DNA from: Cyclobacteriaceae bacterium
Lineage (GTDB): Bacteria; Bacteroidota; Bacteroidia; Cytophagales; Cyclobacteriaceae
NCBI GenBank assembly: GCA_020832305.1
Contig: JAFIEV010000089.1
Coordinates: 310,001 to 374,000, forward strand
Direction: 5' to 3'
DNA length: 64,000 nucleotides
The position numbers and the translations under genes are program-made. Position 1 is the stretch's first letter, and each line of letters opens with the position of its first letter. Below the pieces are notes generated by a model, which did not search any database, had not been told where the DNA came from, and saw nothing but the letters and a program-made list of their open reading frames with translations. Of this stretch, positions 6,408 to 28,981 are shown in pieces.

Positions 6408-6444
6408 GTGGTCCTCAGGAGTTTAGCCTCCGGGGACCACTTTT
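6408..6444 (+). terminator. Hairpin terminator or attenuator after nosZ
   Basis: GTGGTCC (6408-6414) pairs with GGACCAC (6434-6440), and GGAG (6418-6421) with CTCC (6428-6431), followed by TTTT. It lies between nosZ and the next nos gene, so it may reduce read-through and separate nosZ level from that of the maturation genes. Confidence 0.7.
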
Positions 6445-6485
6445 AAAAACCCTTCTCGTTTAGTATTTTTTTAAATAATCAGCTC

Positions 6486-7076: not shown

Positions 7077-7102
7077 CCCTTAAAAACCCAAACAAAAAAA
7101 AC

Positions 7103-7531: not shown

Positions 7532-7536
7532 TAACT

Positions 7537-8802: not shown

Positions 8803-9499
8803 CAAAAATTTTGGCAGACTACAGGCCCTAAAAAACATCAATCTCGAACTGGTGAAAGGCAAATCCTATGCCCTGATTGGGCCCAATGGATCGGGAAAAA
8901 CCACACTGATCAAATGCATATTAGGGCTGGTAATTGCAGCAAAAGGAAAAATTCTGATTGATGGCTTGTCCACAGCAGGAAAATGGCAATATCGCGAAAA
9001 AATAGGCTATATGCCACAAATAGGCCGCTATCCCGATAATATGAAAATCGGACAGATTTTTGAAATGGCGATCAACATAAGAAAGCACCCTGGCCAGATT
9101 GACGAAGAACTTCTCTCTGCATTCCGGCTCAATGACATGTACCACAAGCGAATGCACACCCTCTCCGGAGGCACAAGACAGAAAGTAAGCGCTGCCCTGG
9201 CCTTTTTGTTCAATCCCGACATCCTCATCCTTGATGAACCTACAGCAGGCCTTGATCCCGTTTCGGTAGAGCTGCTCAAAGAGAAAGTCATACGATGTAA
9301 AGAGGACGGCAGACTTATCATGATCAGTTCGCATATTATGAGCGATCTGGATGATCTGGCCAGTGATATTATCTATTTATATGAGGGCGATCTGCTGTAC
9401 GATAATTCTATTGATACCCTCAAATCAGAAACCAATGAATCACGACTAGGCAAAGCCATTTCCAAATTCATTACTCAAACCCATTCTATTCACGATTAA
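8780..9499 (+). CDS. nosF: NosF ABC-transporter ATPase
   Basis: A 239-residue ATP-binding subunit with Walker A GPNGSGKT (34-41), signature LSGGT (128-132), Walker B ILILDEP (148-154) and a switch His in SSHIMSDLDDL. It pairs with NosY to energise the NosDFY complex needed for the CuZ centre of NosZ. The start lies inside the 3' end of nosD and the stop is 10 bases before nosY, so the three genes form a coupled unit. Confidence 0.95.
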   Translation: MISIQEVNKNFGRLQALKNINLELVKGKSYALIGPNGSGKTTLIKCILGLVIAAKGKILIDGLSTAGKWQYREKIGYMPQIGRYPDNMKIGQIFEMAINIRKHPGQIDEELLSAFRLNDMYHKRMHTLSGGTRQKVSAALAFLFNPDILILDEPTAGLDPVSVELLKEKVIRCKEDGRLIMISSHIMSDLDDLASDIIYLYEGDLLYDNSIDTLKSETNESRLGKAISKFITQTHSIHD

Positions 9500-9509
9500 T
9501 GATCTGACC

Positions 9510-10277
9510 GTGCTACGACTTATTAAATACATCTTGTACGATATCCTTAGAAACCGTTTTATCCTTTTCTATACACTGTTTTTGTTTCTTAGCACCTATG
9601 CCATGTTTCAGCTCGACAGCGATACATCAAAGGTCATTTTGAGCATGCTGAACATCGTATTAATGGTTGTACCATTGGTAAGCATTATATTCACTACCAT
9701 ACACTTCTACAATTCGTATGAATTCATAGAAATGATGCTGGCACAACCCATAAACCGGAGTGTGATATTTATGAGTCAGTATATTGCCGTTTCAGTATCT
9801 ATGTCTCTGGGATTTTTCATTGGCACGGGAACCCCGATGCTCATCTATGGCATTCCAGATGCAGGCTATGCCCTTTTACTTTCGGGATTTATGCTGACCA
9901 TGGTATTTGTATCCATGGCCTTTCTGGCATCAGTGATTACCCGGGATAAAGCCAAAGCTATTGGCATGGCCTTGCTGTTCTGGTTTTATTTTGTTCTAAT
10001 TTACGATGCCTTAATGCTCTGGATCGTCTATACCTTTAGCGACTATCCACTTGAAAAACCCATTCTGGCACTTATATCAGCCAATCCGGTTGACCTGGCA
10101 CGTGTAATGTTACTGCTAAAGCTTGACATTTCAGCGCTTATGGGCTTTACCGGTGCCTTTTACAGAGACTTCTTCGGCAGCAATCTCGGAATATATTTCG
10201 CCATGTCGGTTTTAATCCTTTGGGTTGTAATCCCACTTTGGCTTTCCATGAGAATATTCAGAAAAAAAGACTTGTAG
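9510..10277 (+). CDS. nosY: NosY ABC-transporter permease
   Basis: A 255-residue integral membrane protein with six hydrophobic helices and the NosY-like opening LRLIKYILYDILRNRF. It is the membrane partner of NosF. GTG at 9510 is chosen because the ATG at 9499 runs into a stop after two codons. Family-typical features include the EFIEMMLAQPINR cytoplasmic segment and a central TRDKAKAIGMAL stretch. It closes the nos run; no clear hairpin follows before the second Rrf2 gene. Confidence 0.93.
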   Translation: MLRLIKYILYDILRNRFILFYTLFLFLSTYAMFQLDSDTSKVILSMLNIVLMVVPLVSIIFTTIHFYNSYEFIEMMLAQPINRSVIFMSQYIAVSVSMSLGFFIGTGTPMLIYGIPDAGYALLLSGFMLTMVFVSMAFLASVITRDKAKAIGMALLFWFYFVLIYDALMLWIVYTFSDYPLEKPILALISANPVDLARVMLLLKLDISALMGFTGAFYRDFFGSNLGIYFAMSVLILWVVIPLWLSMRIFRKKDL

Positions 10278-14882: not shown

Positions 14883-15572
14883 ATGAAAGATATTTTTAAT
14901 ATGAATGATCACAACGCATTAAAAATCGAGGTTCTTTATGGTTTTATGATTGAGTTATTTCGTTTTCCATCTCTAAAACTTACAGATGCTGCGGTTACTT
15001 ACCAGAATATGCCTGAAGAGAACCACCAAAGTAAGGGCCGACAATTCGATTTGTTTATACAATTTCTGTTTGACAGTCCTCCGACTAGTATTGAAGAAAA
15101 ATATTTCAGCTCTCCACATGTACAAAACGTAACACAGTTCATGCTACTGGCAACAGAGCATGAAATAAGAAGTTCGATACTTAATCAACAAATAAATAAT
15201 TTGTGCAATCCGTTTTGCTTTAATTCATTTCATGCTTATTTACTATACAAGCAAGACTGTATCCAGAGGCATGATGCATATTTTCTAAGAGATTTTATAA
15301 TACCTGTGCTTTACCAGATAAAAGATTCTTTTGTAAGTGAGTTGAGACCACTAAGAAATATTAGGACTACATCGAAACACTTGCAGAGGTATGAACAACA
15401 TTTCACCAACCCTTTTCAACATGCTTTTTTAGCGCTCCTCGAGAGCTTTGTAAACCTAACCAGACCACAGGCTCCCTTTTCGGAAATTCCAGAGGCATTT
15501 AGCATTAATCCTCTGGCAATTTCCAAAAGGAATGACAGGGCTTTTTTCCCGGGCTGGATTTGTAAGAATTGA
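14883..15572 (+). CDS. Unrecognised helical protein opening the nitrate-reduction run
   Basis: A 229-residue soluble protein with no signal peptide or membrane helix. It seems mostly alpha-helical, starting EVLYGFMIELFRFPS, and has two close cysteines in NNLCNPFCFNSF. The segment DAYFLRDFIIPVLYQI is faintly like TorD/NarJ molybdoenzyme chaperones, and a dedicated chaperone would fit the position, but the resemblance is too weak to assign. It is the first gene after two FNR-like palindromes and is 53 bases before the Crp/Fnr regulator. Function unknown. Confidence 0.7.
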   Translation: MKDIFNMNDHNALKIEVLYGFMIELFRFPSLKLTDAAVTYQNMPEENHQSKGRQFDLFIQFLFDSPPTSIEEKYFSSPHVQNVTQFMLLATEHEIRSSILNQQINNLCNPFCFNSFHAYLLYKQDCIQRHDAYFLRDFIIPVLYQIKDSFVSELRPLRNIRTTSKHLQRYEQHFTNPFQHAFLALLESFVNLTRPQAPFSEIPEAFSINPLAISKRNDRAFFPGWICKN

Positions 15573-15625
15573 TGATGATTGATTGTGAATTTTTTATTTT
15601 TAACTGGTAAGTTAATATCTATACG

Positions 15626-16342
15626 ATGAGCGAAAAGACAACGAATATCCCTGGAATCCGGGAAATGTTAAACAGATATTGCAGCCAAGAGTGGCTTCGG
15701 TTTTTGGAGTTTTATACCCGTTATGATGACTTTCAAAAAAATCAAAGCATTTTCAAAGAAGGAGAACCCATCGAATGTATACACATTATAGAAAATGGTA
15801 AGGTAAAAATCATTGGAAATTACAAAAAATCAGAAGAAAGAATTGTACGTCTGGCATCAGATGGTCAAATCATTGGGCACCGGGGCATAGGCGGAGATTA
15901 CCGGTACAGCGTTTCTGCTATTTGTTTGACCGACGTTCGCATAAGCCTGATTCCGGTTAAAATCTTTCTTGATCTATTAAAGGCCAATAATGAGCTGTGT
16001 TTTCATTTCATGTTATTTTTTGCAGAAGAATTGAAAAGGTCAGAACAAAATATAAAAGACCTTGAGTCTATGACTGTATTACAACGAACTGCTAAAGCTT
16101 TATTGACTAATATAGAGAGTTTTGGTTATGATGCTTTCGAACATCGCTTGCTGGATTTCACTTGCAGTCGGTCTGAACTTGCACAAATGGCTTCCACTAC
16201 TTATGAAAGCCTGGTGCGAGCCTTACGCGAATTGAATGAAAAAAATATAATACAAATTGCCGGTAAAAATATTTATATCCAGGATGAAAACGCTTTGCGA
16301 AATATCCTGAAAGATGAGCCCACAGAAATTTCCAACTTATAA
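15626..16342 (+). CDS. Crp/Fnr-family transcriptional regulator
   Basis: A 238-residue regulator with an N-terminal cyclic-nucleotide-binding-type beta-roll (residues about 30-130, FKEGEPIECIHIIENGKVKI) and a C-terminal winged helix (SRSELAQMASTTYESLVRALREL). It lacks the N-terminal four-cysteine [4Fe-4S] cluster of FNR; only C19 is present there, so any NO or redox sensing would differ. It is followed 13 bases later by narK. It probably controls this run through the palindromes at 14775 and 14837, and may autoregulate; this is inference. Confidence 0.9.
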   Translation: MSEKTTNIPGIREMLNRYCSQEWLRFLEFYTRYDDFQKNQSIFKEGEPIECIHIIENGKVKIIGNYKKSEERIVRLASDGQIIGHRGIGGDYRYSVSAICLTDVRISLIPVKIFLDLLKANNELCFHFMLFFAEELKRSEQNIKDLESMTVLQRTAKALLTNIESFGYDAFEHRLLDFTCSRSELAQMASTTYESLVRALRELNEKNIIQIAGKNIYIQDENALRNILKDEPTEISNL

Positions 16343-16355
16343 CTTTTTAATATTT

Positions 16356-17693
16356 ATGGCAACTTGGTTAAATGAGTGGCAACCGGAAGACCAGGAATTC
16401 TGGCAAAACAAAGGCAAAAAACTCGCATGGCGTACACTTTCAGTAACTACCCTTGCGCTTACATTGTCTTTTGCCTCATGGTTTATGATGAGCGCTATTG
16501 TGACCCGACTTAATGGTGTAGGGTTTTCCTTCACAGAAAAACAACTTTTTTGGCTGGCCGCTATGCCGGGGCTCGCAGCAGGCACTCTGCGCATCCTGCA
16601 CACATTCCTCATTCCGATTTATGGAACCCGTCATACCATCACCATTTCCACCTTCATAAAACTGATACCGGTTATTGGCATCGGTCTGGCTGTAATGAAT
16701 CCCAATACACCATTCTGGGTATTTATAGTACTTGCGCTGACCGCTGGTTTTGGAGGTGGTGATTTCTCTTCTTTTATGCCTTCTACCAATTTATTTTTTC
16801 CCGCCAGACTTAAGGGCACAGCCCTGGGCATTCAGGCAGGTATAGGAAACTTTGGGGTAAGCATAGCGCAGTTTATGACCCCGGTGATGCTGGGAATAGC
16901 CACCTATGGCGCTAACCAGACTTTTACCAAGAAAACTTACAGCGGGGAAATTATCAGTAATGAAATTTACCTGCAAAGTGCTGCGTTCTGGTATGCGCCC
17001 CTTCTTCTGATTATGGGAGTCCTTTGCTGGCGTTTGCTTCGAAGCGTGCCCGTAAAAGCCAGTTTCAAGGAACAGCTCGATATCTTTAAAGACAGGCACA
17101 CCTGGTATTGCACCATTACTTATTTTATGACATTTGGCACCTTTGCCGGTTTATCTGCCGCCTTCCCAATGATGATACATACCCTTTATGGCAGCTTTGA
17201 AGGTGCGCCAGATCCATTAAAATATGCTTTTTACGGACCACTCATAGGTTCTGCCTCGAGGGTATTGTTTGGTTTCGTAGCTGATAAAACAGGTGGTGCC
17301 ATACTTACTACCATAACCGGCCTCGGACTCATCGCCGGTGTAATCTGTGTCATTTCATTTGGATTGGTACAACCTACCGGAATGGAACAATTTCCACTGT
17401 TTATCGGCATTATGATGATGTTGTTTTTCTTCACCGGAGTTGGAAATGCCGCTACATTCAGGCAATATCCAATTATCTTTAAACATAATCCCAGACAGGC
17501 TGCAGGGGTAATCGGGTGGACAGCAGCCATTGCAGCTTACGGACCTTTTATATTCTCAATAGCCATTGGTTTTTTCATTGGCAATATGGGAAATGCCACC
17601 GGTTTCTTCTGGATTTTGGGCACCTTCCTGGTTTTGGCTACCATCATAAACTGGTACTATTACGGTCGTAAGGGCGCCGAAAGACCCAGCTAA
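16356..17693 (+). CDS. narK: NarK1-type nitrate transporter (MFS)
   Basis: ATG 16356 gives a 445-residue protein with about twelve helices and the NarK-typical start (WQPEDQEFW, then KLAWRTLSV). The nitrate-porter signature appears around GGGDFSSFMPSTNLFFP and LGIQAGIGNFG. The sequence is closest to the NarK1 group, known as nitrate/proton symporters. A start at 16314 would overlap the regulator gene. It is encoded directly before the membrane and catalytic subunits, so it probably supplies nitrate to a cytoplasmic reductase. A second, different NarK is at 27509. Confidence 0.92.
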   Translation: MATWLNEWQPEDQEFWQNKGKKLAWRTLSVTTLALTLSFASWFMMSAIVTRLNGVGFSFTEKQLFWLAAMPGLAAGTLRILHTFLIPIYGTRHTITISTFIKLIPVIGIGLAVMNPNTPFWVFIVLALTAGFGGGDFSSFMPSTNLFFPARLKGTALGIQAGIGNFGVSIAQFMTPVMLGIATYGANQTFTKKTYSGEIISNEIYLQSAAFWYAPLLLIMGVLCWRLLRSVPVKASFKEQLDIFKDRHTWYCTITYFMTFGTFAGLSAAFPMMIHTLYGSFEGAPDPLKYAFYGPLIGSASRVLFGFVADKTGGAILTTITGLGLIAGVICVISFGLVQPTGMEQFPLFIGIMMMLFFFTGVGNAATFRQYPIIFKHNPRQAAGVIGWTAAIAAYGPFIFSIAIGFFIGNMGNATGFFWILGTFLVLATIINWYYYGRKGAERPS

Positions 17694-17713
17694 GCGTATT
17701 AAAAGATAATATT

Positions 17714-18769
17714 ATGCTAAAATTATTTCAAACACTCAATACACAGGCACTCATAAAAGCCACCATCGCGGCTATTGCTGTTGTGATTCTGGTTTTGGCC
17801 GGCTCTAGAAACCTTCAAAATTTTGATGCGGCGCTCATTGCCTATTTACTCGGAACTGTTTTCGCAGTCTTTGGCATTGCCTATCGTTATTCGGTTTGGT
17901 TGCAAAGACCTCCTACCCGACTCTATTGGAGAAGAAGCTGGCAATTTTTGCTGAGTAAAGATTTTCCCAGTTATGCCTGGCGCTCACTGGTGTTGTTTTT
18001 CAAAAACATTCTGTTTCAACGCTTTATTTACCCGCGTGGAAAAACCCGTTGGATAGGGCATTTTCTGCTGGCCACCGGCTGTCTTATCGCCTTTGCTGTT
18101 ACCATTCCACTTACCTTTGGATGGGTGCATTTTACACTGGAGCAAGGTTCATTTTCTACCTATAATGCCAATTTTTTCGGTTTTAAAGCTGGAACATTTG
18201 AATTGGGTTCACCCATAGCCTTCCTCACTTTTCATGCCTTGGTATGGTGTTCGGTACTGGTAACCATAGGCGCTGTGATGATGATGAAAAGAAGGCTCAC
18301 CAATGGAGGCCTGATTGCAACACAAACTTTTGAAGGCGACTGGTTACCACTCATACTGCTCATTGCCATTTCCATTACCGGCCTGGGTATTTCTTATGAC
18401 TATACCTTTCTGCAGGGGCGTACCCATCAATTTATGTCGGTCACCCATGCTGTAACAGTAATTCTGTTTCTGGTTTGGATTCCCTTCGGAAAGTTTTTCC
18501 ATATTTTTCAAAGACTTGCCCAATTGGGCGCAAACATTTATAAAGTGGAAGGAGAGCGGCGTGGCATGGCCGTATGTCCGCATACATTAGAGCCATTTGC
18601 CTCCCATACCCATGTTGAAGACCTTAAGAATATAAGCCGTGATCTGGGCTTTGATTTCAGGTTGGAAAATGGAAAGAACCATCTGGATTTTTCTCCGGAA
18701 GGCAAGCGTTCAGCCCTGGCAAAAGCACATTTTGAGGCAAGAAAAAACTCAGGTAAATTTTTTGGATAA
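17714..18769 (+). CDS. NarI/DsrM-like b-type cytochrome membrane subunit
   Basis: A 351-residue protein with about six membrane helices (near 13-32, 39-60, 113-137, 167-192, 210-230 and 240-264) and a soluble C-terminus of about 85 residues. H116, H174, H238, H245 and H263 lie in or beside helices. The last helix, HAVTVILFLVWIPFGKFFHIF, resembles the heme-binding end of NarI/DsrM proteins. I infer a quinol-oxidising cytochrome b that passes electrons to the molybdoenzyme encoded 17 bases downstream. The cytoplasmic tail has a CPHTLEPFASHTH segment that might bind metal. It differs from classical NarI in length and tail. Confidence 0.78.
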   Translation: MLKLFQTLNTQALIKATIAAIAVVILVLAGSRNLQNFDAALIAYLLGTVFAVFGIAYRYSVWLQRPPTRLYWRRSWQFLLSKDFPSYAWRSLVLFFKNILFQRFIYPRGKTRWIGHFLLATGCLIAFAVTIPLTFGWVHFTLEQGSFSTYNANFFGFKAGTFELGSPIAFLTFHALVWCSVLVTIGAVMMMKRRLTNGGLIATQTFEGDWLPLILLIAISITGLGISYDYTFLQGRTHQFMSVTHAVTVILFLVWIPFGKFFHIFQRLAQLGANIYKVEGERRGMAVCPHTLEPFASHTHVEDLKNISRDLGFDFRLENGKNHLDFSPEGKRSALAKAHFEARKNSGKFFG

Positions 18770-18786
18770 TCTTTTAAAAGAATATT

Positions 18787-21003
18787 ATGGCTACATTACC
18801 CATATCAACAGATAAAATCATTGAAAAATACGGGCCGCATAAAGCCTATACTCCTGCCAGTGGGTTTCATGGCAGCCATGAACCCGACAGGCTGGTCAAA
18901 ACCCATTGCTGTTTTTGTGGCATGCAGTGCGGTATACAGCTTAAGGTAAAGGACAATACCATTGCCGGATTTGAACCCTGGATGGAGTTTCCCTTTAATG
19001 AAGGAAGGCTGTGTCCTAAAGGCGTGCAAAGATACCTGCAAAACAATCATCCCGATCGCCTTCTGCATCCATTGCAACGGGTGGAAGGAAAAGGGTTTGA
19101 AAATATTGGCTGGGACAAAGCCATGGATAGAACAATTAGTGAAATCAGGCGAATCCAGGAACAGTATGGGCAGGATGCTTTTGGAATGCTTTCCGGAGTT
19201 TCACTTACCAATGAAAAAAGTTATATGATTGGAAAATTTGCCCGTGTGGCACTAAAGACAGCCAATCTCGATTACAATGGAAGGCTTTGTATGGTAAGCG
19301 CCGGAGCTGGTAATAAAAAAGCTTTTGGTCTCGACCGGATATCCAACAGCTGGAGTGATCTGGCAGGCGCTGAAGTGATCATCATAGCTGGCACCAATGT
19401 GAGTGAGACCTTCCCTACCCTCACCCATTACATCTGGCAGGCACGAGACAGAGGCGCTAAACTCGTTGTTATTGACCCGCGAGTCACACCCATTGCAAGA
19501 ACTGCAGATCTGCATTTGCCTGTTAAACCGGGTACCGATTCAGCGCTCTACGGGGCTATGCTGAAGATACTGGTTGACAATGACTGGCTGGATCACGATT
19601 TTATACAACATCATACTTCCGGCTTTGATAAAACCATTGAAGCTGTCAAGGATTATGACCTGGCCTGGGCTGAAAAAACCACCGGCATTCCTGCTGATAA
19701 AATTTTACAGGCCGCTACCTGGTGGGGTAAGGCATCCACCAGCTTTTTATTGCATGCCCGTGGCATCGAACACCACACAAAGGGTGTAGATAATGTTTTG
19801 GGTTGTATTAACCTGGTATTGGCTACCGGAAGAATCGGTAAGCCTTATTGTGGTTATGGCACAATAACCGGACAGGGCAATGGTCAGGGCGGAAGAGAAC
19901 ACGGTCATAAATGTGATCAATTGCCAGGAAACCGGGATATCACCAACCCCGAACATCGTAAATATATCGCCGGTGTTTGGGGTATAGAAGAATCTGAGAT
20001 GCCTGGAAAAGGATTATCGGCCTATGAAATGATCGAAGCCATCCACCGTGGAGAAGTAAAAGGACTGATAACCATTTGCTTTAACCCATTGGTTTCACTA
20101 CCCAACAATAATTTTGTAAGAGAAGCTTTTGAAAAACTTGAATATTATGTAGCCATTGACTTTTTCCTAAATGAAACGGCCAGGCATGCCGATTTAATCC
20201 TGCCAGGTTCATTACATGAGGAAGAAGAAGGAACTGTTACAACTGCCGAAGGCAGGGTGGTTAAGATCAACCAGGCCATTACACCTCCTGGTGAGGCTCG
20301 TAAAGATAGTGATATCCTGATCGAACTCGCCCAAAGACTGGGTGCAGGAGATAAATTCAATTATTCCTGCAGCGAAGATATCTTTAATGAACTGCGGGTT
20401 GCCTCCAAAGGTGGAACCGCTGACTATTATGGCATTACCTATGAAAAAATAGAGAAAAACATGGGTGTATTCTGGCCATGTCCCGACCTGGACCATCCGG
20501 GTACACCAAGGCTCTGGGAAGATCGGAAATTCAAAACACCAGATGGCAAGGCACACTTCAATCCGGTTCCCTATCGCGATCCATCTGAAGTAGTTGATAC
20601 AGAATTTCCTGTCGTATTAACAACCGGACGGGTCGTTTCGCAATACCTGAGTGGTTCACAGACGAGAAGAATCGGCAAGCTGGTCGATCAGTATCCTGAA
20701 CCTTTGCTGGAGATCCATCCCAAACTGGCAGCAAAATACAATATTAAAAACCGCGAACTGGTTAAAGTTAGTACCCGCCGTGGTGAAGCTTTTTTCCCTG
20801 CTCAACTTGTAGAAACCATCAGGGAAGATACCGTTTTCATCCCCTACCATTGGGGCGGCAAACAATCGGCCAATCAGCTCACCATAGGAACCCTTGATCC
20901 GGTATCAAAAATACCTGAATTTAAGGTTTGTGCCTGTCGACTTGAGCCAACCGGCCAACAAGGCACTGAAAAAATGAAAGAAACCGCGTATCAGAGTTAT
21001 TAA
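18787..21003 (+). CDS. NasA/NarB-like molybdopterin oxidoreductase, probable nitrate reductase
   Basis: A 738-residue bis-MGD enzyme. The N-terminus binds one [4Fe-4S] cluster through C41, C44, C48 and C76, with the electron-relay Lys in CPKG (K78). C168 in [11 protein letters not shown] is the likely Mo ligand, as in NasA, NapA and formate dehydrogenases. The cofactor-binding stretch [17 protein letters not shown] is present and the C-terminal domain looks complete. No Tat signal is seen, so it should be cytoplasmic. Length suits NarB/NasC-type reductases (about 710-730) rather than NarG (about 1,200). Gene context (NarK, cytochrome b, Fe-S subunit, Moco genes) supports nitrate as substrate; formate dehydrogenase is the main alternative. 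Confidence 0.85.
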
Positions 21004-21022
21004 TAAACCAAAATTTTATACC

Positions 21023-21592
21023 ATGCCCAATACCAAATATAACCAGCAAATGGAGTTTTTCATAGACATGCAGCGATGTATAGGCTGTCATGCCTGTGAA
21101 ATGGCCTGTGCTGAATGTGAAACCAATGGTCAGGAAAGCATGATCCACATACATTATGTAGACCGCGCCGTATCGGTACAAACCACCGTACAGGTATGCA
21201 TGCATTGTGAGGATCCGGTATGTGCCAATGTTTGTCCTGCCGACGCCATTACCAAAGACGATTTTGGCGTAGTCCATACGGCCAATACTTCTCGGTGCAT
21301 AGGTTGCTCCAATTGTGTACTGGCCTGCCCCTTCGGTGTTCCTATTAAGAGCGAACCTCAGGAGCTTATGATGAAGTGTAATATGTGTTACGACCGTACA
21401 AGTGCAGGTAAAAAGCCTATGTGTGCTACTGTCTGCCCAAGTCAGGCATTATACTATGGTACCCGTGAGGAAATCAGCAAAATGCGGCCCGACAGTGTTC
21501 CTGTTAATACCTTTCAGTTTGGAGAGCAGGAAGTAAAAACAAAAGTAAATATAATGATGCCCAAAGGCAGTACACACCTCAAAGTTCATTAA
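21023..21592 (+). CDS. Four-cluster ferredoxin-type electron-transfer subunit
   Basis: A 189-residue DmsB/NrfC-like protein with cysteine groups for four [4Fe-4S] clusters: [37 protein letters not shown] and CNMCYD...CATVCP. There is no signal peptide, so it should be cytoplasmic like the catalytic subunit 19 bases upstream. It probably carries electrons from the membrane subunit to the molybdenum centre. The C-terminal 40 residues ([11 protein letters not shown] onward) are a tail without cluster ligands. It lies 11 bases before the Rieske gene. Confidence 0.92.
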
Positions 21593-21603
21593 TTCAAATC
21601 ATT

Positions 21604-22128
21604 ATGGCAGAAAATAAAAATTCAACCGATAAAATCCCCAACTGGAAAAGAGACTTTCCGGTAGACCAGGAGGAGGCAACCCATGTATCCAGAAGAGAAT
21701 TTGCCAAGTTTCTGGGTCTGCTATCAGGAGCACTGGCCCTGGGGAATGGGGCAATTGTCGTAAAGAGCATGGCATTTCCTCATAAAGCCCTGGAAGGCGA
21801 GCATTTTGTTTGCAATGTGGCAGACCTTGCGCCCGGAGAAATGCATCAATTTGAAATTGAGGGAAGTAAAAGCATACCCTATATTCTCATTCACCTGCCA
21901 GAAGGAGGGTGGCGTGCATTTGAACAAAAATGTACCCACCTGGCCTGTGCCGTGAGGTACAGAGCCGACATCGACCGGATCGAGTGCCCATGTCACCGGG
22001 GTTATTTCGATGCAAGAACCGGCGTGGTAATAGAAGGTCCGCCCCCAAGGCCATTGCCACAGCTAGAGGCAGTTGACAAAAATGGAAAAATCTATGTCAG
22101 GGCTATGTCAGAACCTCTAAATGTATAA
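21604..22128 (+). CDS. Rieske [2Fe-2S] protein with twin-arginine leader
   Basis: A 174-residue protein with SRREFAKFLGLL (R30-R31) and a hydrophobic stretch typical of a Tat signal-anchor, then a Rieske fold. Cluster ligands are C110, H112, C128 and H131 (CTHLAC and CPCHRGYF). C115 and C130 add the disulfide pair found in bc1-type, high-potential Rieske proteins. This predicts a domain outside the cytoplasm, anchored by its N-terminus. It may act with the cytochrome b subunit in quinol oxidation. It sits between the ferredoxin subunit and a small membrane protein in an evident operon. Confidence 0.9.
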   Translation: MAENKNSTDKIPNWKRDFPVDQEEATHVSRREFAKFLGLLSGALALGNGAIVVKSMAFPHKALEGEHFVCNVADLAPGEMHQFEIEGSKSIPYILIHLPEGGWRAFEQKCTHLACAVRYRADIDRIECPCHRGYFDARTGVVIEGPPPRPLPQLEAVDKNGKIYVRAMSEPLNV

Positions 22129-22131
22129 ACC

Positions 22132-22386
22132 ATGAGTGATTTCAGATATTCACAAAACGAGGCGCATCCCAATAAAACCAATACCTTGATGACAGGCATT
22201 ATAGTACTTTTAATTTGCCTGGTTACCATTCAGATATGGCTGTTATACAGCGCACTTAACAATGCGCTTGAAGAAAATTTTGGCATCGCCCTTGCAACTT
22301 TTTTTGGTTCTTTGGTGTTGGCTTTAGTATCTTTCTGGTTATTGAGATACCTGCCCGAACCAAGGATTATCAAATCGAGAAAATAA
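22132..22386 (+). CDS. Small two-helix membrane protein of the nitrate-reduction operon
   Basis: An 84-residue protein with two predicted membrane helices (about 20-42 and 51-71) and a basic end (RIIKSRK). It starts 3 bases after the Rieske stop and shares its last base with the moaA start (TAATG), so translation is coupled. I do not recognise a family with certainty. The context suggests a small structural subunit of the membrane complex formed with the cytochrome b and Rieske proteins. Confidence 0.75.
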   Translation: MSDFRYSQNEAHPNKTNTLMTGIIVLLICLVTIQIWLLYSALNNALEENFGIALATFFGSLVLALVSFWLLRYLPEPRIIKSRK

Positions 22387-23366
22387 TGCTTAAAGATACA
22401 TTCAACCGGGTACATGATTATTTGAGGATTTCACTTACCGACAGCTGCAACTTCCGGTGCCAGTATTGCATGCCGGAAGAAAACATACAATGCATGCCGT
22501 CTTCAAAATTGATGAGTTCGCAAGAAATCGATCATCTTAGCTCGGTGTTTGTTTCCCTTGGTGTTAAAAAAATACGACTTACCGGCGGTGAACCCCTGGT
22601 TCGGAAAGAGTTTGCGGAAATAGCCCAGAGACTAGCGAAGTACCCGGTAAAGCTTACTCTTACGACCAATGGGGTCTTGGCAGATAAGTTTTTACCCGTC
22701 TTTAAAGATACAGGAATCAAGTCTGTAAATGTAAGCCTCGACACCCTGAAACCCGATGTATTTTATGCAATGACACGGCGCAATCAATTTAATAAGGTTT
22801 GGCAAAACATTATGTTGCTCATAGAACAGGGTTTTCATGTAAAAATTAATGTCGTTGCTATGGAGGGTGTGGTTGAAAATGAAATCCTCGATTTTGTGGC
22901 ACTAACCCAGGACCTTCCTGTGCATGTTCGGTTTATTGAGTTTATGCCATTTGAAGGAAACCGATGGGTAAGCAATAAAGTAGTAACCGCCACTCAAATG
23001 CTTAAACTTGTCAGAGAGTCATATCAGATACAAAAACTCAGTGATGACATCAATGACACTGCCAAAAAGTATGTAGTTCCCGGGCATAAAGGCACTTTTG
23101 CTTTTATCACCACCATGAGTGAACATTTTTGTGGTACCTGCAACCGCTTAAGGCTTACTGCCGATGGCAAAATCAAAAATTGCCTGTTCGGAAAAGAAGA
23201 GATCGATCTTCTGAGTGTTCTCAGAAATGGCGGGGATGTGGAACCTTTCATTTTTAAATCTGTACAGCGGAAATATGCCGTAATGGGTGGTCAGTTTGAA
23301 CATGGATATAAACAAACAACAGCAACAGAATTAGAAAACCGCTCCATGATTCGCATAGGAGGATAA
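22386..23366 (+). CDS. moaA: GTP 3',8-cyclase MoaA
   Basis: First step of molybdenum-cofactor synthesis. The 326-residue radical SAM enzyme has the N-terminal SAM cluster motif CNFRCQYC, the C-terminal second cluster in HFCGTCNRLRLT plus CLFG, and the Gly-Gly end (RIGG) needed for GTP cyclisation. Its start overlaps the previous stop by one base. Being in the reductase operon ties cofactor supply to enzyme expression. Confidence 0.96.
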   Translation: MLKDTFNRVHDYLRISLTDSCNFRCQYCMPEENIQCMPSSKLMSSQEIDHLSSVFVSLGVKKIRLTGGEPLVRKEFAEIAQRLAKYPVKLTLTTNGVLADKFLPVFKDTGIKSVNVSLDTLKPDVFYAMTRRNQFNKVWQNIMLLIEQGFHVKINVVAMEGVVENEILDFVALTQDLPVHVRFIEFMPFEGNRWVSNKVVTATQMLKLVRESYQIQKLSDDINDTAKKYVVPGHKGTFAFITTMSEHFCGTCNRLRLTADGKIKNCLFGKEEIDLLSVLRNGGDVEPFIFKSVQRKYAVMGGQFEHGYKQTTATELENRSMIRIGG

Positions 23367-23397
23367 TGGTGAGCTTAATATAGACTGAACAATTACG

Positions 23398-24138
23398 ATG
23401 TCAACGGAATACGTATTTATCTTACTTTGCATTGCCATGCCGCTGGTTGCTTTTTTATATGCATCCGTAGGCCATGGAGGGGCCAGCAGTTACCTCATGC
23501 TGCTCACCCTGCTCAACTTTGCACCAGAGCAGATACGTCCGACCGCGCTCATTCTCAATATGTTCGTTTCGCTTATTGCTTTTCTTTCTTACCGAAAGGC
23601 CTGTGTATTCCCACAAAAGTTATTTCTGGCCCTGGTTATTTTTTCAATACCGGCCGCATTTATAGGAGGAACCATTCAAATGGACACGGTGCTGTATAAA
23701 AAGATTTTAGGTTTTTTACTACTGTTCCCCGCTCTGCGTTTTCTCAATGTATTTCCCGTGGCGAATAAAATAAAGATAGAAAGACAATGGTGGATGGCGC
23801 CCTTATTGGGAATCAGTATTGGTTTAGTTTCTGGTATGATTGGGATTGGGGGTGGTATTATTTTGTCTCCTGTTATTCTTATGCTTGGTTGGGCAGCAAT
23901 GAAAGAAACAGCAGCCCTAAGTGCTTTGTTTATCTTTGTAAATTCTGTTGCCGGCTTTCTGGGTTCTAAAGCCATGGGCATCCAAATCGATGCTGCATTA
24001 TGGCTTCTTATGCCCCTTACGATAGCAGGAGGTGCATTGGGTGCCTATTACGGCGCTCACAGATTCAATGTAAAAATTATTAAATACGCTTTAACCCTGG
24101 TGCTTTTTATTGCATCAATAAAACTCATATGGACATAA
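23398..24138 (+). CDS. TauE/SafE-family membrane permease
   Basis: A 246-residue membrane protein with about eight helices, the family's GHGGASSYLMLL motif near the N-terminus and GLVSGMIGIGGGIILSP at mid-length (the two duplicated signature halves). The family exports or imports sulfite, sulfoacetate or related small anions. Its place inside a Moco gene run, overlapping mobA by 10 bases, hints at sulfur or oxyanion transport linked to the cofactor, but no substrate can be read from sequence. Confidence 0.87.
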   Translation: MSTEYVFILLCIAMPLVAFLYASVGHGGASSYLMLLTLLNFAPEQIRPTALILNMFVSLIAFLSYRKACVFPQKLFLALVIFSIPAAFIGGTIQMDTVLYKKILGFLLLFPALRFLNVFPVANKIKIERQWWMAPLLGISIGLVSGMIGIGGGIILSPVILMLGWAAMKETAALSALFIFVNSVAGFLGSKAMGIQIDAALWLLMPLTIAGGALGAYYGAHRFNVKIIKYALTLVLFIASIKLIWT

Positions 24139-24731
24139 AACAGGCAAATAATATCGAAGCTTTTATCCTGGCAGGAGGCAGGAGCCGCCGCATGGGACAA
24201 GATAAAGGACTTATGCAGCTGGGCAACAAACCCATGGTGCGTTATACCCTTGAAGAACTGGAAAAGCTGCATTTACCGGTCTCCATTATTTCAGGCCGGG
24301 CAGAATACGCGGCATACGGGCACAGTGTTTTCGCTGACATCGTGGAAGGCCGGGGACCCATGGGGGGGCTTTACACAGCCATGATGAGAAGTCGGGCCGA
24401 TCAGGTACTGTTGCTAAGTTGTGATGCTCCCGGCATCAGCGCTCAGGCACTCAGGCATCTTCTTTCAAAGGCAGAAAATGAACTGATCACCGTTGCAGGT
24501 TTTGATAAGAAAATCAATCCGCTTTTTGCCATATATCCGCTTTCCATGCTTAATGAAGTAAAAAACCGCATGGATGCCGGTAAATTGCGTATGCATGAAT
24601 TTATTGAAGCACAGCCACACAAAATTGTTGACCTTAGCTGGATGGAACAAGAATGCAATGCACTATCACTCAATATAAATACTCCTGAAGATATACAACT
24701 TTTTTTGAAAGCATGGAAAAAAACCGGATAA
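24129..24731 (+). CDS. mobA: Molybdenum cofactor guanylyltransferase MobA
   Basis: A 200-residue nucleotidyltransferase with the LAGGRSRRMGQDKG signature (14-27), GPMGGLYTAM and LLLSCDAPG. It attaches GMP to Mo-molybdopterin to form MGD, the cofactor form used by the NasA-like enzyme encoded upstream. It overlaps the TauE-type gene by 10 bases and moaD by 19 bases. A separate cytidylyltransferase domain is at 45412-47145. Confidence 0.93.
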   Translation: MDIKQANNIEAFILAGGRSRRMGQDKGLMQLGNKPMVRYTLEELEKLHLPVSIISGRAEYAAYGHSVFADIVEGRGPMGGLYTAMMRSRADQVLLLSCDAPGISAQALRHLLSKAENELITVAGFDKKINPLFAIYPLSMLNEVKNRMDAGKLRMHEFIEAQPHKIVDLSWMEQECNALSLNINTPEDIQLFLKAWKKTG

Positions 24732-24955
24732 AGATCCTGGCTTTCGGTCAGTTAACCGATCATGTAGCCAGTAGTGGCTTTGAAATGGATTTTGTGCAGG
24801 ATACAGACACACTTAAGGAACGGTTATATGAAAACTATCCCGGACTTAAAAATCTTCATTTCAGCATAGCGGTAGATAAAAAAATCGTGAATTCAAATAC
24901 CCATCTGGCGGCTGGTTGTGAAATAGCTTTACTCCCTCCCTTTTCCGGAGGATAA
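24713..24955 (+). CDS. moaD: Molybdopterin synthase small subunit MoaD
   Basis: An 80-residue beta-grasp (ubiquitin-like) protein ending PPFSGG; the terminal Gly-Gly is adenylated by MoeB and made into the thiocarboxylate that supplies sulfur to molybdopterin. Overlaps mobA by 19 bases and precedes moeB by 3 bases. Length and C-terminus are fully typical. Confidence 0.93.
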   Translation: MEKNRIKILAFGQLTDHVASSGFEMDFVQDTDTLKERLYENYPGLKNLHFSIAVDKKIVNSNTHLAAGCEIALLPPFSGG

Positions 24956-24958
24956 TGC

Positions 24959-26083
24959 ATGGCAATTATGATGAACAGATTTGAAAGGCAAGTAAAATTG
25001 CCGGGAATAGGTCGGGAAGGGCAGCAAAAACTGCAACAGGCTAAAGTGCTGGTTATCGGAGCCGGAGGACTGGGTTGTCCCGCCCTGTTGTACCTGGCCG
25101 CAGCCGGGGTTGGTACCCTGGGTATCGTAGATGGTGATATAGTGGATGCCAGCAACCTCAACCGACAGATACTTTTTGGAGCTAACGATGTTGGTAAACC
25201 TAAAACCGCCTGCGCAGCTGCGATGCTCAGGAAAAAATATCCAGATGTTCATCTGATTAGCTATTCATTTTACCTCAGAGCTGAAAATATTACAGAAGTA
25301 TTACAGGATTTTGACATTGTACTTGACGGATCAGATAATTTTGAAACGCGCTATCTGGTGAATGACGCTTGTATGCTCATGGAAAAACCCTTTGTCATGG
25401 GGGCCATCTATCAATTTGAAGGGCAAATAGGGCTGTTCAACGACCGCCGGGAAGAATGTACCTCCGTGCAATACCGGGATCTGTACCCCGAACCTCCGCC
25501 GGCTGGTCAGATTCCAGATTGCAATCAAAGCGGTGTATTAGGCGTATTGCCCGGCATCATCGGGACTCTCCAGGCTACCGAAGTTATTAAGTATATCTGT
25601 GACCTTGATAAACCCAAATCTCCTACCCTGCTTATTTACAACATGCTGAAGCAACAATTTTACCATTTGGAGATTACGCCAAATCCAGAGAATTCCATCA
25701 AACTGCCGGCCAATAAAGAAGCATTAAAAAATACCGATTATTCGGTAATCTGTGGAGCAGGCACCGAAGAAATAAGCTGGGAATATGCCCTGGACATTGC
25801 GAAAAAGTCGATGGGAAAAACAGCCCTTGTCGATGTGAGGGAATATGGCGAATTACCAGAATTGCAGAATCCAAATTGCATAAAATTACCGCTTTCAAAT
25901 TTGGAAAGTCAGGTAAAGGAACTTCAAAACCTTCAAAACCTAATAATTTTTTGCCAATCCGGTATCCGGAGTCAAAAAGCATACAAACGGCTTAGGGAAA
26001 TCTATCCCTATAAAACCATACTTTCCATTAAGGGAGGCATAAATGCCGCAGCGAGTACTAAAATTTTCAAAGACAATGCCTGA
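24959..26083 (+). CDS. moeB: MoeB-type adenylyltransferase fused to rhodanese
   Basis: A 374-residue two-domain protein. Residues 1-250 are a ThiF/MoeB E1-like domain with the nucleotide motif GAGGLGC (34-40) and NLNRQ. Residues 265-374 are a rhodanese domain with active-site C332 in FCQSGIRS. Such MoeZ/MoeBR proteins both adenylate MoaD and transfer sulfur to it. The metal-binding Cys pairs common in MoeB (CxxC) are not clear. ATG 24959 is used; ATGs at 24968 and 24971 are alternatives. It overlaps moaE by 8 bases. Confidence 0.9.
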   Translation: MAIMMNRFERQVKLPGIGREGQQKLQQAKVLVIGAGGLGCPALLYLAAAGVGTLGIVDGDIVDASNLNRQILFGANDVGKPKTACAAAMLRKKYPDVHLISYSFYLRAENITEVLQDFDIVLDGSDNFETRYLVNDACMLMEKPFVMGAIYQFEGQIGLFNDRREECTSVQYRDLYPEPPPAGQIPDCNQSGVLGVLPGIIGTLQATEVIKYICDLDKPKSPTLLIYNMLKQQFYHLEITPNPENSIKLPANKEALKNTDYSVICGAGTEEISWEYALDIAKKSMGKTALVDVREYGELPELQNPNCIKLPLSNLESQVKELQNLQNLIIFCQSGIRSQKAYKRLREIYPYKTILSIKGGINAAASTKIFKDNA

Positions 26084-26513
26084 TTCATCAATATTTGTTC
26101 ATGGGGCTATTTCGGCAGATGACATAGCAAATGCCATTCAAAGATTATCTGAATTTCAAAATATCGGAGCCCACAGCATCTTTATTGGTCAGGTTCGTTC
26201 CGATGCAATAGAAGATCAAATTGTATCTGCCATTGATTATGCGGCTTACAAGGAAATGGCAGAGCAAAAAGCCCTGGAATTGATTTCAGAGACTGTACAA
26301 ACCTATCAGTTAAACACAGCGATGGTGCAACATAGTTTGGGAATGGTAAAAAGTGGCGAAATCTGTCTATTTGTCTTGACGGCATCGCGTCACAGAAAAT
26401 CATCACTCGAAGCTTGCGCATATCTTGTGGAACGCATTAAAAAGGAATTGCCGGTCTGGGGCAAAGAAATACTGGAAAAAGGCGGTCACATCTGGAAAAA
26501 AAACACGGAATAA
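26076..26513 (+). CDS. moaE: Molybdopterin synthase large subunit MoaE
   Basis: The start is set at ATG 26076, giving a short ATGCCTGA overlap with moeB; an upstream ATG at 26043 would add 11 residues inside moeB. The 145-residue protein has the MoaE features GAHSIFIGQVR, MVQHSLGMVKSGE, ASRHRKSSLEAC and PVWGKEIL (catalytic Lys region). It forms the heterotetramer with MoaD that converts cPMP to molybdopterin. Confidence 0.92.
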   Translation: MPDSSIFVHGAISADDIANAIQRLSEFQNIGAHSIFIGQVRSDAIEDQIVSAIDYAAYKEMAEQKALELISETVQTYQLNTAMVQHSLGMVKSGEICLFVLTASRHRKSSLEACAYLVERIKKELPVWGKEILEKGGHIWKKNTE

Positions 26514-26515
26514 GA

Positions 26516-27415
26516 ATGGTAGATATCACTTCTAAAAATTTCAGCCTTAGAAAGGCCACAGCACAAGCCCTGGTGAGGGTAGGTACTTTAGAAACCATGG
26601 AAGCCATAGAACAGGACAGGGTGCCCAAAGGCAATGTATTCTGCATGGCCAAAGCTGCCGGTTTGTTTGCCGTAAAACGCACCAGCGATATGATCCCCGA
26701 TTGCCATCCATTGCCAGTCGAGTATACCGATATTCGTTATGAAACAAAGGATACTTTTATTCGGATTGAAGTTGAAGTACATACGGTCTACAAAACCGGT
26801 GTAGAAGTAGAAGCCATGCATGCCGCTTCTGTAGTGGCGCTTACTATGTACGATATGCTAAAACCCATCGATAAAGAAGTAAGCATTCATGAAATTAAAC
26901 TCTTACAAAAGGAGGGCGGAAAAAGCAGCCTTGTTCCCGAACACAGCGATCTCAAAACTGTATTGCTTTTCTGTTCTGATGCCATACAGGATGGCAAAAA
27001 AGATGATCAGGCCGGTCTTGAAGTAATCGAAAAGTTGAAAACTTATCATGTTTCCGTAGATGACTATAGGATTTGCCGCAATGACGCCCCGGAAATAACA
27101 GGGATATTAGAAAAATACCTTGAAAGTAAAATGGATCTGATTATCATATTGGGTGGTACAGGACTTGGGAAAGGAGATAAAACACCTGAAGCGGTAGTGC
27201 CATATATAGAAAAAAGAATTCCCGGCATTGAAGAAGCAATGCGAAGTTATGGTCAGCAGAGAAGTCCTTATGCCATGTTCTCAAGGAGTATGGCAGGTAC
27301 CTGCGGCAACAGCTTAATTCTCGTATTGCCAGGATCCACTCGTGGTGCCGCAGAATCGGTGGCGGCTATATTTCCCGGCGTTTTTCATTTTTTTAAAAGC
27401 ATTAAAAAGTCCTGA
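26516..27415 (+). CDS. moaCB: MoaC-MoaB fusion (cPMP synthase plus molybdopterin adenylyltransferase)
   Basis: A 299-residue fusion. Residues 1-140 are MoaC with SDMIPDCHPLP (about 58-67) and GVEVEAMHAASVVALTMYDM; residues 150-299 are MoaB/MogA with IILGGTGLGKGDKTPEA and SRSMAGTCGNSLILVLPGS. MoaC completes cyclic pyranopterin formation after MoaA, and MoaB/MogA adenylates molybdopterin. The fusion occurs in other Bacteroidota. It starts 2 bases after moaE and closes the run. A MoeA for molybdate insertion is not in this window. Confidence 0.92.
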   Translation: MVDITSKNFSLRKATAQALVRVGTLETMEAIEQDRVPKGNVFCMAKAAGLFAVKRTSDMIPDCHPLPVEYTDIRYETKDTFIRIEVEVHTVYKTGVEVEAMHAASVVALTMYDMLKPIDKEVSIHEIKLLQKEGGKSSLVPEHSDLKTVLLFCSDAIQDGKKDDQAGLEVIEKLKTYHVSVDDYRICRNDAPEITGILEKYLESKMDLIIILGGTGLGKGDKTPEAVVPYIEKRIPGIEEAMRSYGQQRSPYAMFSRSMAGTCGNSLILVLPGSTRGAAESVAAIFPGVFHFFKSIKKS

Positions 27416-27508
27416 CCCATTATTTGCAGCGGTTATATTTTTATAAATTTTGATAAAATCACTAAAACTTTTTACAAATAAGTTTCAAGAACAATCAATT
27501 TTTTTATC

Positions 27509-28981
27509 ATGCAAAAACCTGAAATTATAGACTTCAGCCAGGAAAGAATACGCATGTTGCATTACACCTGGATCGCTTTTTTTATCACTTTTTATCTGTG
27601 GTTCAATATGGCGCCGCTGGCTACTACCATGCTGGCCAGCCTGGATTGGTTAACCCCGGATCATATAAAAATATTGGCAATATGTAATGTGGCGTTAACC
27701 ATACCAGCCCGCATTGTTGTTGGTTCCCTCATCGATCGCTTTGGACCGCGCAAAATCTTTTCAGGATTGCTCATCGTAATGTCTATACCGGTGTTCTTCT
27801 TTGCCTTTGGCAATAGTTTTATGCAATTGCTTGTTTCAAGACTTATTCTTAGTTCCATTGGCGCCGGTTTCGTTATAGGGATACGCCTGGTGGCTGATTG
27901 GTTTCCTCCAAAAATGGTTGGTCGTGCTGAAGGCTTTTATGCAGGTTGGGGCAATTTCGGCTCGGCCTGGGCTGCCATGACACTTCCATGGCTGGCGCTT
28001 GAACTCTTCGGTCAATACGAAAACGGATGGAGGTATGCACTGGCCATCAATGGATTTGTCTCCCTGATATATGGTTTTATCTTTTACAGAATAGCACGTG
28101 ATGTACCAGAAGGAAAAAAATTCAAAGGGATTAAAAAAACCCAGCCATTTATAGCCACTTCATGGGGAGATCTTGTACAGTTGATTATATGGACCTTCCC
28201 TTTACTTGGTGCTTTGGGTGCATTGGCATGGCGCCTGAGCAATGTCTCAATCGGCAATAACGGCGAAAGCTTTATATCAGATACGATGCTGTACATAATC
28301 TGGGGACTACTTATCTTTATTTTTATTGCCCATGTCGGTAAGACCTTGCAAATTAATATTCCATTACTGAGAAAGGGCATTCCTGATAAGGATAAATATT
28401 CGTTTAATTCTGTAGCCGCACTAAACACTACTTATTTTGCCAATTTTGGAGCTGAACTTGCAGTAGTGTCAATGCTGCCCGCATTTTTTGAAAGCATTTT
28501 TTCCATCAGTCCCACTTTTGCCGGCATGGTAGCGGCTTCATTTGCCGTGGTAAATCTTTTTGCAAGGCCGATTGGAGGTGTACTTTCCGATACCCTGGGC
28601 AATCGCAAACGCACCATGCTGATTTATATGATAGGCATTACCATTGGGTTTGTACTCATGGGACTAATTAACGCAACCTGGCCTATCTGGATGGCAATTG
28701 TGGTTACCATATTATGCTCCATTTTTGTACAGGGAGCTGAAGGCGCTACTTTTGCCGTGATTCCTTTCATTAAAAAGAATATGACCGGACAGATCTCAGG
28801 TATGGCAGGCGCTTATGGAAATGTAGGAGCAGTAGTATACCTGATCATTTATTCTATGGTGGATGCCCAAACTTTCTTTTTTATCCTGGCAGGTGGTGCA
28901 GCCTTTAGCTTTTTGTACTGTCTTATTTTCCTGAAAGAACCAGAAGGTTCGTTTTTGGAAGAATACGCGGATGAGGCTTAA
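27509..28981 (+). CDS. NarK2-type nitrate/nitrite transporter (MFS)
   Basis: A 490-residue transporter with about twelve helices, opening with IIDFSQERIRMLHYTWIAFF. It has an MFS loop GSLIDRFGPRKI and the nitrate-porter signatures AGWGNFGSAWAAMTL and GAYGNVGAVVY. The sequence belongs to a different NarK branch from the gene at 16356; the two branches are fused in Paracoccus NarK. It may exchange nitrate for nitrite. It has its own 93-base upstream gap after the Moco run and is convergent with the radical SAM gene. Confidence 0.9.
   Translation: MQKPEIIDFSQERIRMLHYTWIAFFITFYLWFNMAPLATTMLASLDWLTPDHIKILAICNVALTIPARIVVGSLIDRFGPRKIFSGLLIVMSIPVFFFAFGNSFMQLLVSRLILSSIGAGFVIGIRLVADWFPPKMVGRAEGFYAGWGNFGSAWAAMTLPWLALELFGQYENGWRYALAINGFVSLIYGFIFYRIARDVPEGKKFKGIKKTQPFIATSWGDLVQLIIWTFPLLGALGALAWRLSNVSIGNNGESFISDTMLYIIWGLLIFIFIAHVGKTLQINIPLLRKGIPDKDKYSFNSVAALNTTYFANFGAELAVVSMLPAFFESIFSISPTFAGMVAASFAVVNLFARPIGGVLSDTLGNRKRTMLIYMIGITIGFVLMGLINATWPIWMAIVVTILCSIFVQGAEGATFAVIPFIKKNMTGQISGMAGAYGNVGAVVYLIIYSMVDAQTFFFILAGGAAFSFLYCLIFLKEPEGSFLEEYADEA

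Follow-up and report, generated by a model that had tools for sequence, protein, structure and literature searches.

A widespread molybdoenzyme gene module of Bacteroidota that may encode a menaquinol-linked nitrate reductase with a NasC-type catalytic subunit

A conserved five-gene module

We analysed a window of 64,000 nucleotides from the genome of a Cyclobacteriaceae bacterium (contig JAFIEV010000089.1, positions 310,001 to 374,000; host genome of 6.48 Mb, 98.8% complete) and identified in it a module whose core unit is five genes (17714-22386), encoding a cytochrome b, a molybdoenzyme catalytic subunit, a four-cluster iron-sulfur subunit, a Rieske protein and a small protein of the DUF6755 family. 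This module is a real and widely conserved variant of the membrane molybdoenzymes, in which Nas-type catalysis is combined with a NarGHI-like frame and an added Rieske protein. The gene unit, its phylogeny, the active-site and cluster residues and the genome context were computed directly, and they strongly suggest a function in nitrate respiration. The reading that we favour, and to which we assign a probability of about three in four, is that the module encodes a membrane-bound, menaquinol-linked respiratory nitrate reductase with a NasC-type catalytic subunit and a catalytic side facing the cytoplasm.

All five core genes lie on the forward strand. The first encodes the putatively NarI-like cytochrome b membrane subunit (351 residues, 17714..18769) and is followed by the genes of the NasC-type catalytic subunit, predicted to bind bis-molybdopterin guanine dinucleotide (738 residues, 18787..21003), of an electron-transfer subunit with four [4Fe-4S] clusters similar to DmsB and FdhB (189 residues, 21023..21592), of the Rieske [2Fe-2S] subunit (174 residues, 21604..22128, PF00355) and of the two-helix membrane protein DUF6755 (84 residues, 22132..22386, PF20540). 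Catalytic, four-cluster and membrane anchor genes are encoded together, the gene combination of the complex iron-sulfur molybdoenzymes.

The conservation of this arrangement was evaluated with the cytochrome b as bait, which was present in eight of 395 genomes of the phylum; when each species was represented by a single genome, scanning retrieved 228 relatives, and the best 80 of these 228 loci were taken. We compared 87 loci (L010-L096, with L010 and L017 from the same genome, as well as L011 and L076) spanning Bacteroidota, Ignavibacteriales and Verrucomicrobiota. The genes for the cytochrome b, catalytic, four-cluster and Rieske subunits occurred on one strand and in one order at all 87, a conserved order that is not due to chance, and a DUF6755 gene was detected by tblastn at 74. 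The first-pass annotation had asked whether the run is conserved as a unit, and from cytochrome b to DUF6755 it is. The 13 loci lacking a tblastn match to DUF6755 belong to Chryseobacterium, Epilithonimonas and Capnocytophaga. The two of them that were inspected (L054 and L071) have an open reading frame of 93 and 99 residues, respectively, at the same place; the first, from Chryseobacterium, scored over the DUF6755 cut-off and the second had no Pfam match.

Because the bait could bias the co-occurrence count, we also ran the reverse search from the catalytic subunit. Proteins with at least 74% identity to it were found in exactly eight of the 395 phylum genomes, the same eight that carry the cytochrome b, and the next best match reached 40%. 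Likewise, the four plasmid records with more than 60% catalytic identity, all from Deinococcus, were the same four holding the cytochrome b, and in both Deinococcus records that we viewed the module adjoins a NarK gene whose product is 58% identical to the NarK1 of the window. DUF6755 gave no tblastn match in the plasmids, though the Deinococcus copy is annotated and, in L127, exceeds the PF20540 cut-off at the same position.

Some loci departed in detail. Nafulsella turpanensis and Xanthovirga aplysinae appear to have a split catalytic gene (L048, 11261-13500; L036, 1725-3900; two pieces each), reflecting either decay or sequencing error. The module is kept in small Apibacter genomes of 2.3-2.5 Mb (L032, L033) and in Capnocytophaga sputigena (L071), which encode one, two and one PF00384 proteins, respectively. 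Litoribacter ruber, another bearer of the module, likewise encodes a single PF00384 protein.

The catalytic subunit belongs to the Nas lineage

The catalytic subunit contains the domains PF00384, PF01568 and PF04879, with ~40 residues ahead of the first cysteine of its [4Fe-4S] site. In a phylogenetic tree of 46 rows (IQ-TREE, LG+C20, midpoint root), in which several long branches and joins were flagged, the 25 module proteins formed a single clade (support 100/100) that joined four NasC-type rows at 100/99; three of these adjoin nirB and the fourth comes from an unannotated record. Four formate dehydrogenase (FDH) rows made up a separate group beside the module and NasC sequences (100/99), and NapA, the proteobacterial Nas and the fused Nas of Bacteroidota fell outside the module and NasC group.

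The active-site residues agreed with the tree. All 85 module proteins have Cys-Met where three FDH rows have selenocysteine or cysteine followed by His, and Thr where the FDH rows have Arg. Each of the ten Nas and Nap references shares both features with the module; ForC has Gln and Arg, matching the CQ/RGH motif reported for it in PMC8808070. On the basis of its Cys-Met and Thr residues, the subunit is predicted to be, broadly defined, a nitrate reductase of the Nas lineage. Tree and active site together led us to reject its identity as an FDH, so that the tree comparison proposed in the first-pass annotation came out on the Nas side.

Assignment to individual families was less straightforward. 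The NasC model NF047855 gave 869 bits, below its curated cut-off of 1100, with 787 for the Deinococcus module copy and 1165 for the NasC of Paenibacillus; this cut-off is narrow, since NirB-linked proteins from Mycobacterium (790) and D. grandis (649) also miss it. The protein does not qualify as Nap (NapA models, 263-278 bits for cut-offs of 904-931), as FDH (TIGR01591, Fdh-alpha, 611 bits for a cut-off of 666) or as AioA (151 bits for 359), and the Cys ligand is kept in 85/85 module proteins. It is not of the NarG type either, with NarG giving a weak partial match in the PDB (E 5e-13, residues 103-270), where solved FDHs were the top single-sequence matches and both E. coli FdhF and Desulfovibrio Nap matched at about 1e-103.

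The subunit had initially been described as Nas-type and devoid of a twin-arginine translocation (Tat) signal. Both points agree with its NasC-side position and with the scarcity of paired arginines in the first 40 residues (2/85 module proteins); the window protein itself has no Tat signal. The N-terminal arm before the first cluster cysteine measures at least 40 residues in module proteins (some lengths being inflated by start choice) and 7-17 in the four NasC-type rows, and it may dock partner subunits. Its length is conserved and its sequence motif is not: a YGP-type motif was present in only 12/85 proteins.

Electron-transfer and membrane subunits

The four-cluster subunit, which resembles subunits of the FdnH/DmsB/PsrB type, has 17 cysteines in 17 conserved columns in 78/78 proteins. 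The Rieske motifs CTHLxC and CxCH were found in 83/83 proteins, including the Cys positions of the bc1-type disulfide (CPHLGC and CPCH in Deinococcus L127); this additional Cys pair corresponds to the one that forms the disulfide in exported Rieske proteins of the bc type. The nearest solved structures are Rieske proteins of the bc and b6f types, with AioB also among the relatives. The N-terminus of the window protein contains a twin-arginine stretch, SRREFAKFLG, and 69 of the 83 proteins have RRxFxK at this end. Among the other 14, 12 from Chryseobacterium and Epilithonimonas have SRKEF, one (L073) has another RR pattern and one (L083) has a doubtful start. The DUF6755 protein, with two hydrophobic segments, scored 35.6 bits with PF20540 (cut-off 27).

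The cytochrome b was more divergent, and its NarI-like fold is supported but less firmly than the features above. The window protein had no Pfam match and showed a weak resemblance to QmoC/TmcC; its Deinococcus counterpart matched PF02665 at E 1.2e-4 and 22.2 bits, just below the cut-off of 22.9. In a profile search of the PDB, the top four rows were all NarI (E 0.018-0.037), with H245 and H263 aligned to NarI H187 and H205, both heme ligands in that protein. VIA-align of an AlphaFold2 model (mean predicted local distance difference test, pLDDT, 81.5) retrieved EtfD at Z 11.4 and NarI chains at Z 8.6-9.3, the first unrelated protein being at Z 8.8. Across 61 sequences, H116, H245 and H263 are invariant, and H139 is absent in six and H174 in six others, as if they were interchangeable; because these two are never lost together, four candidate heme ligands are always present, making two b hemes plausible. 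An additional N-terminal helix precedes the NarI-like part, and the C-terminal domain is predicted to be cytoplasmic. By the charge rule, N-in/C-in is the more likely orientation, with loop 64-109 rich in Lys and Arg (mean Lys+Arg 9.0 vs Asp+Glu 1.2) and loop 135-166 poor in them (1.4 vs 3.2), though the rule does not hold at every loop. In Deinococcus L127, the cytochrome b (10774-11886) is annotated as 'MFS transporter', and two CxxC-type pairs in its C-terminal domain are reminiscent of a zinc ribbon; the Bacteroidota proteins retain C288.

A putative inward electron path and the orientation of the complex

How the subunits assemble, whether they oxidise quinol, their topology, substrate and mode of energy conservation, and the role of the Rieske protein are inferred from these features. 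In the mechanism that we propose, NarK would import nitrate into the cytoplasm and the NarI-like cytochrome b would oxidise menaquinol close to the periplasmic face of the membrane. The b hemes would then carry electrons across the membrane to the four-cluster subunit on its cytoplasmic side, which would pass them to the molybdenum of the NasC-type subunit for the reduction of nitrate; the nitrite formed could be exported, often to NrfA or NirK. Energy would be conserved as in NarGHI, by releasing protons outside and taking them up inside, and DUF6755 may act as an additional membrane anchor. At 62 of the 86 loci the catalytic gene has a NarK-family gene less than 6 kb away, and at 53 the two share a strand; this proximity fits a cytoplasmic active site.

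The Rieske protein is of a periplasmic type and has no obvious place in this inward path. Predicted to lie on the periplasmic side by the quinol site, it might provide a second electron exit or be a redox, structural or sensing part. A more elaborate version would have menaquinol oxidised at a bc1-like site that the cytochrome b shares with the Rieske protein on the periplasmic side, its electrons being split, one moving inward by way of the b hemes to cytoplasmic nitrate and the other outward through the Rieske protein to a periplasmic carrier and from there to nitrite, nitrous oxide or oxygen reductases. We regard this version as unlikely yet worth retaining; if it were true, a single complex would reduce nitrate and also do the job of the bc1 complex.

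The main topological rival, which appears less probable still, places the catalytic side in the periplasm: the Tat-type Rieske protein would export the signal-less catalytic and four-cluster subunits as hitchhikers, an arrangement known for the arsenite oxidase AioBA. The twin-arginine motif of most Rieske proteins, the near absence of one in the catalytic subunits and the presence of AioB among the solved relatives of the Rieske protein would all suit such export, as would the position of the AioA lineage inside that of assimilatory nitrate reductases given in PMC7331816. However, the NarK genes near the module, also found in Deinococcus, point to a cytoplasmic site, and the nearest catalytic relatives are NasC types, cytoplasmic according to PMC7331816. 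Moreover, the charge pattern mostly places the C-terminal side of the cytochrome b in the cytoplasm, and the 12 Chryseobacterium-type Rieske proteins with SRKEF have no arginine pair there.

Respiration versus assimilation in the genome context

The module catalytic subunit is the only match to PF00384 and the only one to PF01568 in its own genome, and the sole bis-molybdopterin guanine dinucleotide enzyme detected there. This genome has NrfA, and NirK was not found in it. NIR_SIR domains were detected in only one frame of 722 residues, whose size suggests a sulfite reductase-like protein, and no protein of NirB size (831-878 residues) was present. The window also contains a nitrous oxide reductase locus (4359..10277, forward strand), where the Sec-type nosZ product (TIGR04246, 921 bits) and NosD score over their cut-offs, accompanied by nosL and by nosF- and nosY-like genes that form an ABC pair; the end of nosY is located ~7.4 kb upstream of the cytochrome b gene.

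We extended this comparison to a panel of 40 module genomes, eight from the phylum sample and 32 hand-picked from the 80 loci. Fused Nas (~1170-1250 residues) and NirB-size proteins occurred in an identical set of 21 genomes. Two Verrucomicrobiota (G425 and G426) encode an 815-818-residue PF00384 protein ~3 kb from a 608-635-residue double NIR_SIR protein; the two probably make up a further assimilatory pair. A separate and recognisable assimilatory pair was thus present in 23 of the 40 genomes, with none seen in 17. NirK exceeded its cut-off in 23 genomes and full-length NrfA was found in 15 (a count that leaves out two genomes over the cut-off with short fragments only), at least one of them occurring in 29 of the 40 and in 13 of the 17 pairless genomes. 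NirS was rejected as a nitrite sink: eight of the 40 genomes passed the family cut-off with only short stretches (E 6e-7 or weaker), which we consider noise. In one genome (G398), fused Nas and NirB are encoded on the module contig, ~10-18 kb away, and many panel genomes have further, weaker PF00384 matches of ~760-820 residues. Single-protein queries of the flanks of the 86 loci recovered nirK at nine (eight distinct genomes) and a nitric oxide (NO)-stress gene of the RIC type at 12; the same queries found assimilatory nirB and the reductase half of fused Nas at none.

These data bear on the possibility that the module encodes an assimilatory nitrate reductase of the usual sort, with its neighbours as a private electron supply for biosynthesis. 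Its NasC-like catalytic subunit would fit that role, and 11 of the 40 panel genomes have neither NrfA nor NirK. We nevertheless consider it improbable to a high degree: the 23 genomes with a separate assimilatory pair would have a second such system, the other 17 lack a NirB-size protein (NirA-type enzymes being inseparable from sulfite reductases by size alone), the host genome has NrfA and nosZ, and assimilatory nirB was missing from the flanks of the 86 loci. The proposal of the first-pass annotation that a Nas-type subunit has been joined to a quinol-oxidising module gains support from the resemblances between the cytochrome b and NarI, each weak alone, as well as from the conserved four-cluster subunit and the largely dissimilatory gene context. 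The remaining alternative, another substrate or reverse operation (FDH, other oxyanion reductase or nitrite oxidase), finds an echo in the Fdh-alpha score and the PDB matches to solved FDHs but is very improbable given the Met and Thr in place of the FDH His and Arg, the separation from FDH in the tree and the association with NarK.

Several observations weigh against a menaquinol-linked respiratory enzyme. For the cytochrome b, the Z values are below the 13 advised for helical folds in VIA-align, a Foldseek search of the PDB with the model returned mostly unrelated receptors and none at E <0.1, the NarI profile match (E 0.018) is weak on its own, and loop 197-209 is acidic (0.2 vs 2.7), contrary to the charge rule. 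As for the context, 24 of the 86 loci have no NarK in the stretch covered and nos genes, including nosZ, flank only two. A dissimilatory sink is not universal, since neither NrfA nor NirK was seen in seven of the 21 fused-Nas genomes and in four of the 17 pairless ones (G279, G395, G405 and G413). The enrichment of NirK in module genomes (6/8 vs 57/387, p 2.9e-4) is confounded because five of the eight belong to one genus, and NrfA is not enriched among the 395 phylum genomes (2/8 vs 58/387, p 0.35). Finally, some genomes have a further candidate for the respiratory role near the module: in an Ignavibacteriales locus (L021) a canonical NarG gene (19560-21038; TIGR01580, 589 bits over the first 493 residues, the gene being cut by the locus end) begins ~5 kb downstream of the core, and in G396 a 1220-residue PF00384 protein with a NarG-like span is encoded ~14 kb from the module.

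Comparison with known systems

NasC of Paenibacillus and Mycobacterium forms the nearest catalytic clade, with the same active-site residues and no signal peptide. The NasC examples that we viewed adjoin NirB and have no anchor or four-cluster gene in the stretch, whereas the module has five structural genes, a longer N-terminal arm and a score below the NasC cut-off. Like the module, NarGHI combines a catalytic and a four-cluster subunit with a cytochrome b (NarI, to which that of the module is putatively similar) and has NarK nearby. However, NarG is ~1250 residues long, against 738 for the module protein, which belongs with Nas, Nap and FDH within the family, and NarH has ~510 residues in contrast to the small, DmsB-like iron-sulfur subunit; the module also adds the Rieske protein and DUF6755, and a family scan of the run gave no match to the NarJ family.

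In the haloarchaeal pNar system, as in the module, genes for a Rieske protein and a b-type cytochrome adjoin the nitrate reductase. Unlike the module enzyme as modelled here, pNar has an exported NarG. Its NarC is homologous to the cytochrome b of the bc1 complex (PMC8301774). The module differs in its NasC-type catalysis and putatively NarI-type cytochrome b. A further parallel is ForCE of Bacillus, in which, according to PMC8808070, a soluble-type catalytic subunit of the Nas/FDH lineage is linked to menaquinone through a non-canonical partner, DUF1641. Its substrate is formate and its motif CQ/RGH, in contrast to the CM/T motif and full membrane module described here, the likeness lying in a soluble-type subunit of this lineage connected to menaquinone. 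AioBA combines a bis-molybdopterin guanine dinucleotide subunit with a Tat-type Rieske subunit, as the module does; to our knowledge, it has neither a cytochrome b nor a four-cluster subunit. AioA belongs to the same broad lineage as the module and its molybdenum has no protein ligand, as described in PMC7331816.

The same source states that the clade of NasA/NasC, AioA, NapA and the second FDH includes no member with canonical four-cluster or anchor subunits, and it describes NasA/NasC as exclusively assimilatory (PMC7331816). At the gene level, the module contradicts the first of these statements. If the module respires, the 'exclusively assimilatory' rule for the NasA/NasC lineage would fail too, and quinol linkage would have been gained or kept in this molybdoenzyme branch. 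Genes read as nitrogen assimilation may then serve nitrate respiration in many Bacteroidota and some other bacteria. Many Bacteroidota with an 'assimilatory nitrate reductase' annotation, or without narG and napA, would be respiring nitrate unrecognised, which would change the genome-based view of denitrification, ammonification and the nitrous oxide balance in soil, sludge and host-associated Bacteroidota. In PMC11653725, the abundance of nasA in a denitrifying bioreactor is interpreted as a sign of assimilation, and PMC11409646 reports that nosZ is frequent among sludge genomes carrying genes for assimilatory nitrate reduction. Among the papers listed by searches of an open-access library, no title or abstract opening evidently described the module, and we came across no name for it; an earlier description elsewhere is possible.

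Neighbouring genes

The first-pass annotation had grouped eight genes (14883-22386) in one run, and all eight open reading frames are indeed real, at the coordinates originally assigned, on the forward strand and with short intergenic gaps. Its first member, a 229-residue frame (14883..15572) with no family match, does not belong to the unit: we excluded it because no convincing relative was found, with none among the 1738 open reading frames of the 86 related loci, while a further 195 genomes from the family yielded no more than two marginal fragments (E 0.007). The idea that it might be a NarJ/TorD-type chaperone was dropped, there being no relatives to examine. Next comes a Crp/Fnr-family regulator (15626..16342, PF00027 and PF13545), probably responsible for local control, whose relatives occur near some loci only. 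The NarK1 nitrate/nitrite transporter (16356..17693, forward strand) scored 269 bits with TIGR00886, below the cut-off of 311.7. Its true start is probably 16356, since a frame beginning at the listed 16314 shares bases with the regulator gene. Promoter and terminator scans yielded 26 and 10 predictions, compared with 21.4 +/- 4.4 and 8.7 +/- 3.1 in shuffles, and thus gave no usable signal.

Downstream of the core, a run of genes for molybdenum cofactor supply and transport identified by family scans (22386..28981, forward strand) starts with moaA, which has one base in common with the DUF6755 stop, and continues up to 28981 with a TauE-type permease, mobA, a ThiS/MoaD-like gene, moeB-rhodanese, moaE, moaC-moaB and a second NarK. 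Relatives of mobA were found at 47 of the 86 loci and of moaA at 32.

Elsewhere in the window, the regions 4359-10797 and 10842-11567 contain the nos genes followed by an Rrf2 regulator and then by a nitrosative-stress protein of the ScdA/RIC type. Two large multi-helix membrane proteins without Pfam match (8-997 and 1970-3283) adjoin the nos locus and possibly have an NO-response or respiratory role. On the minus strand, an XdhC-MobA-like fusion adjoins a likely cysteine desulfurase, recognised by eye (45412-48341), hinting at a molybdenum hydroxylase pathway.

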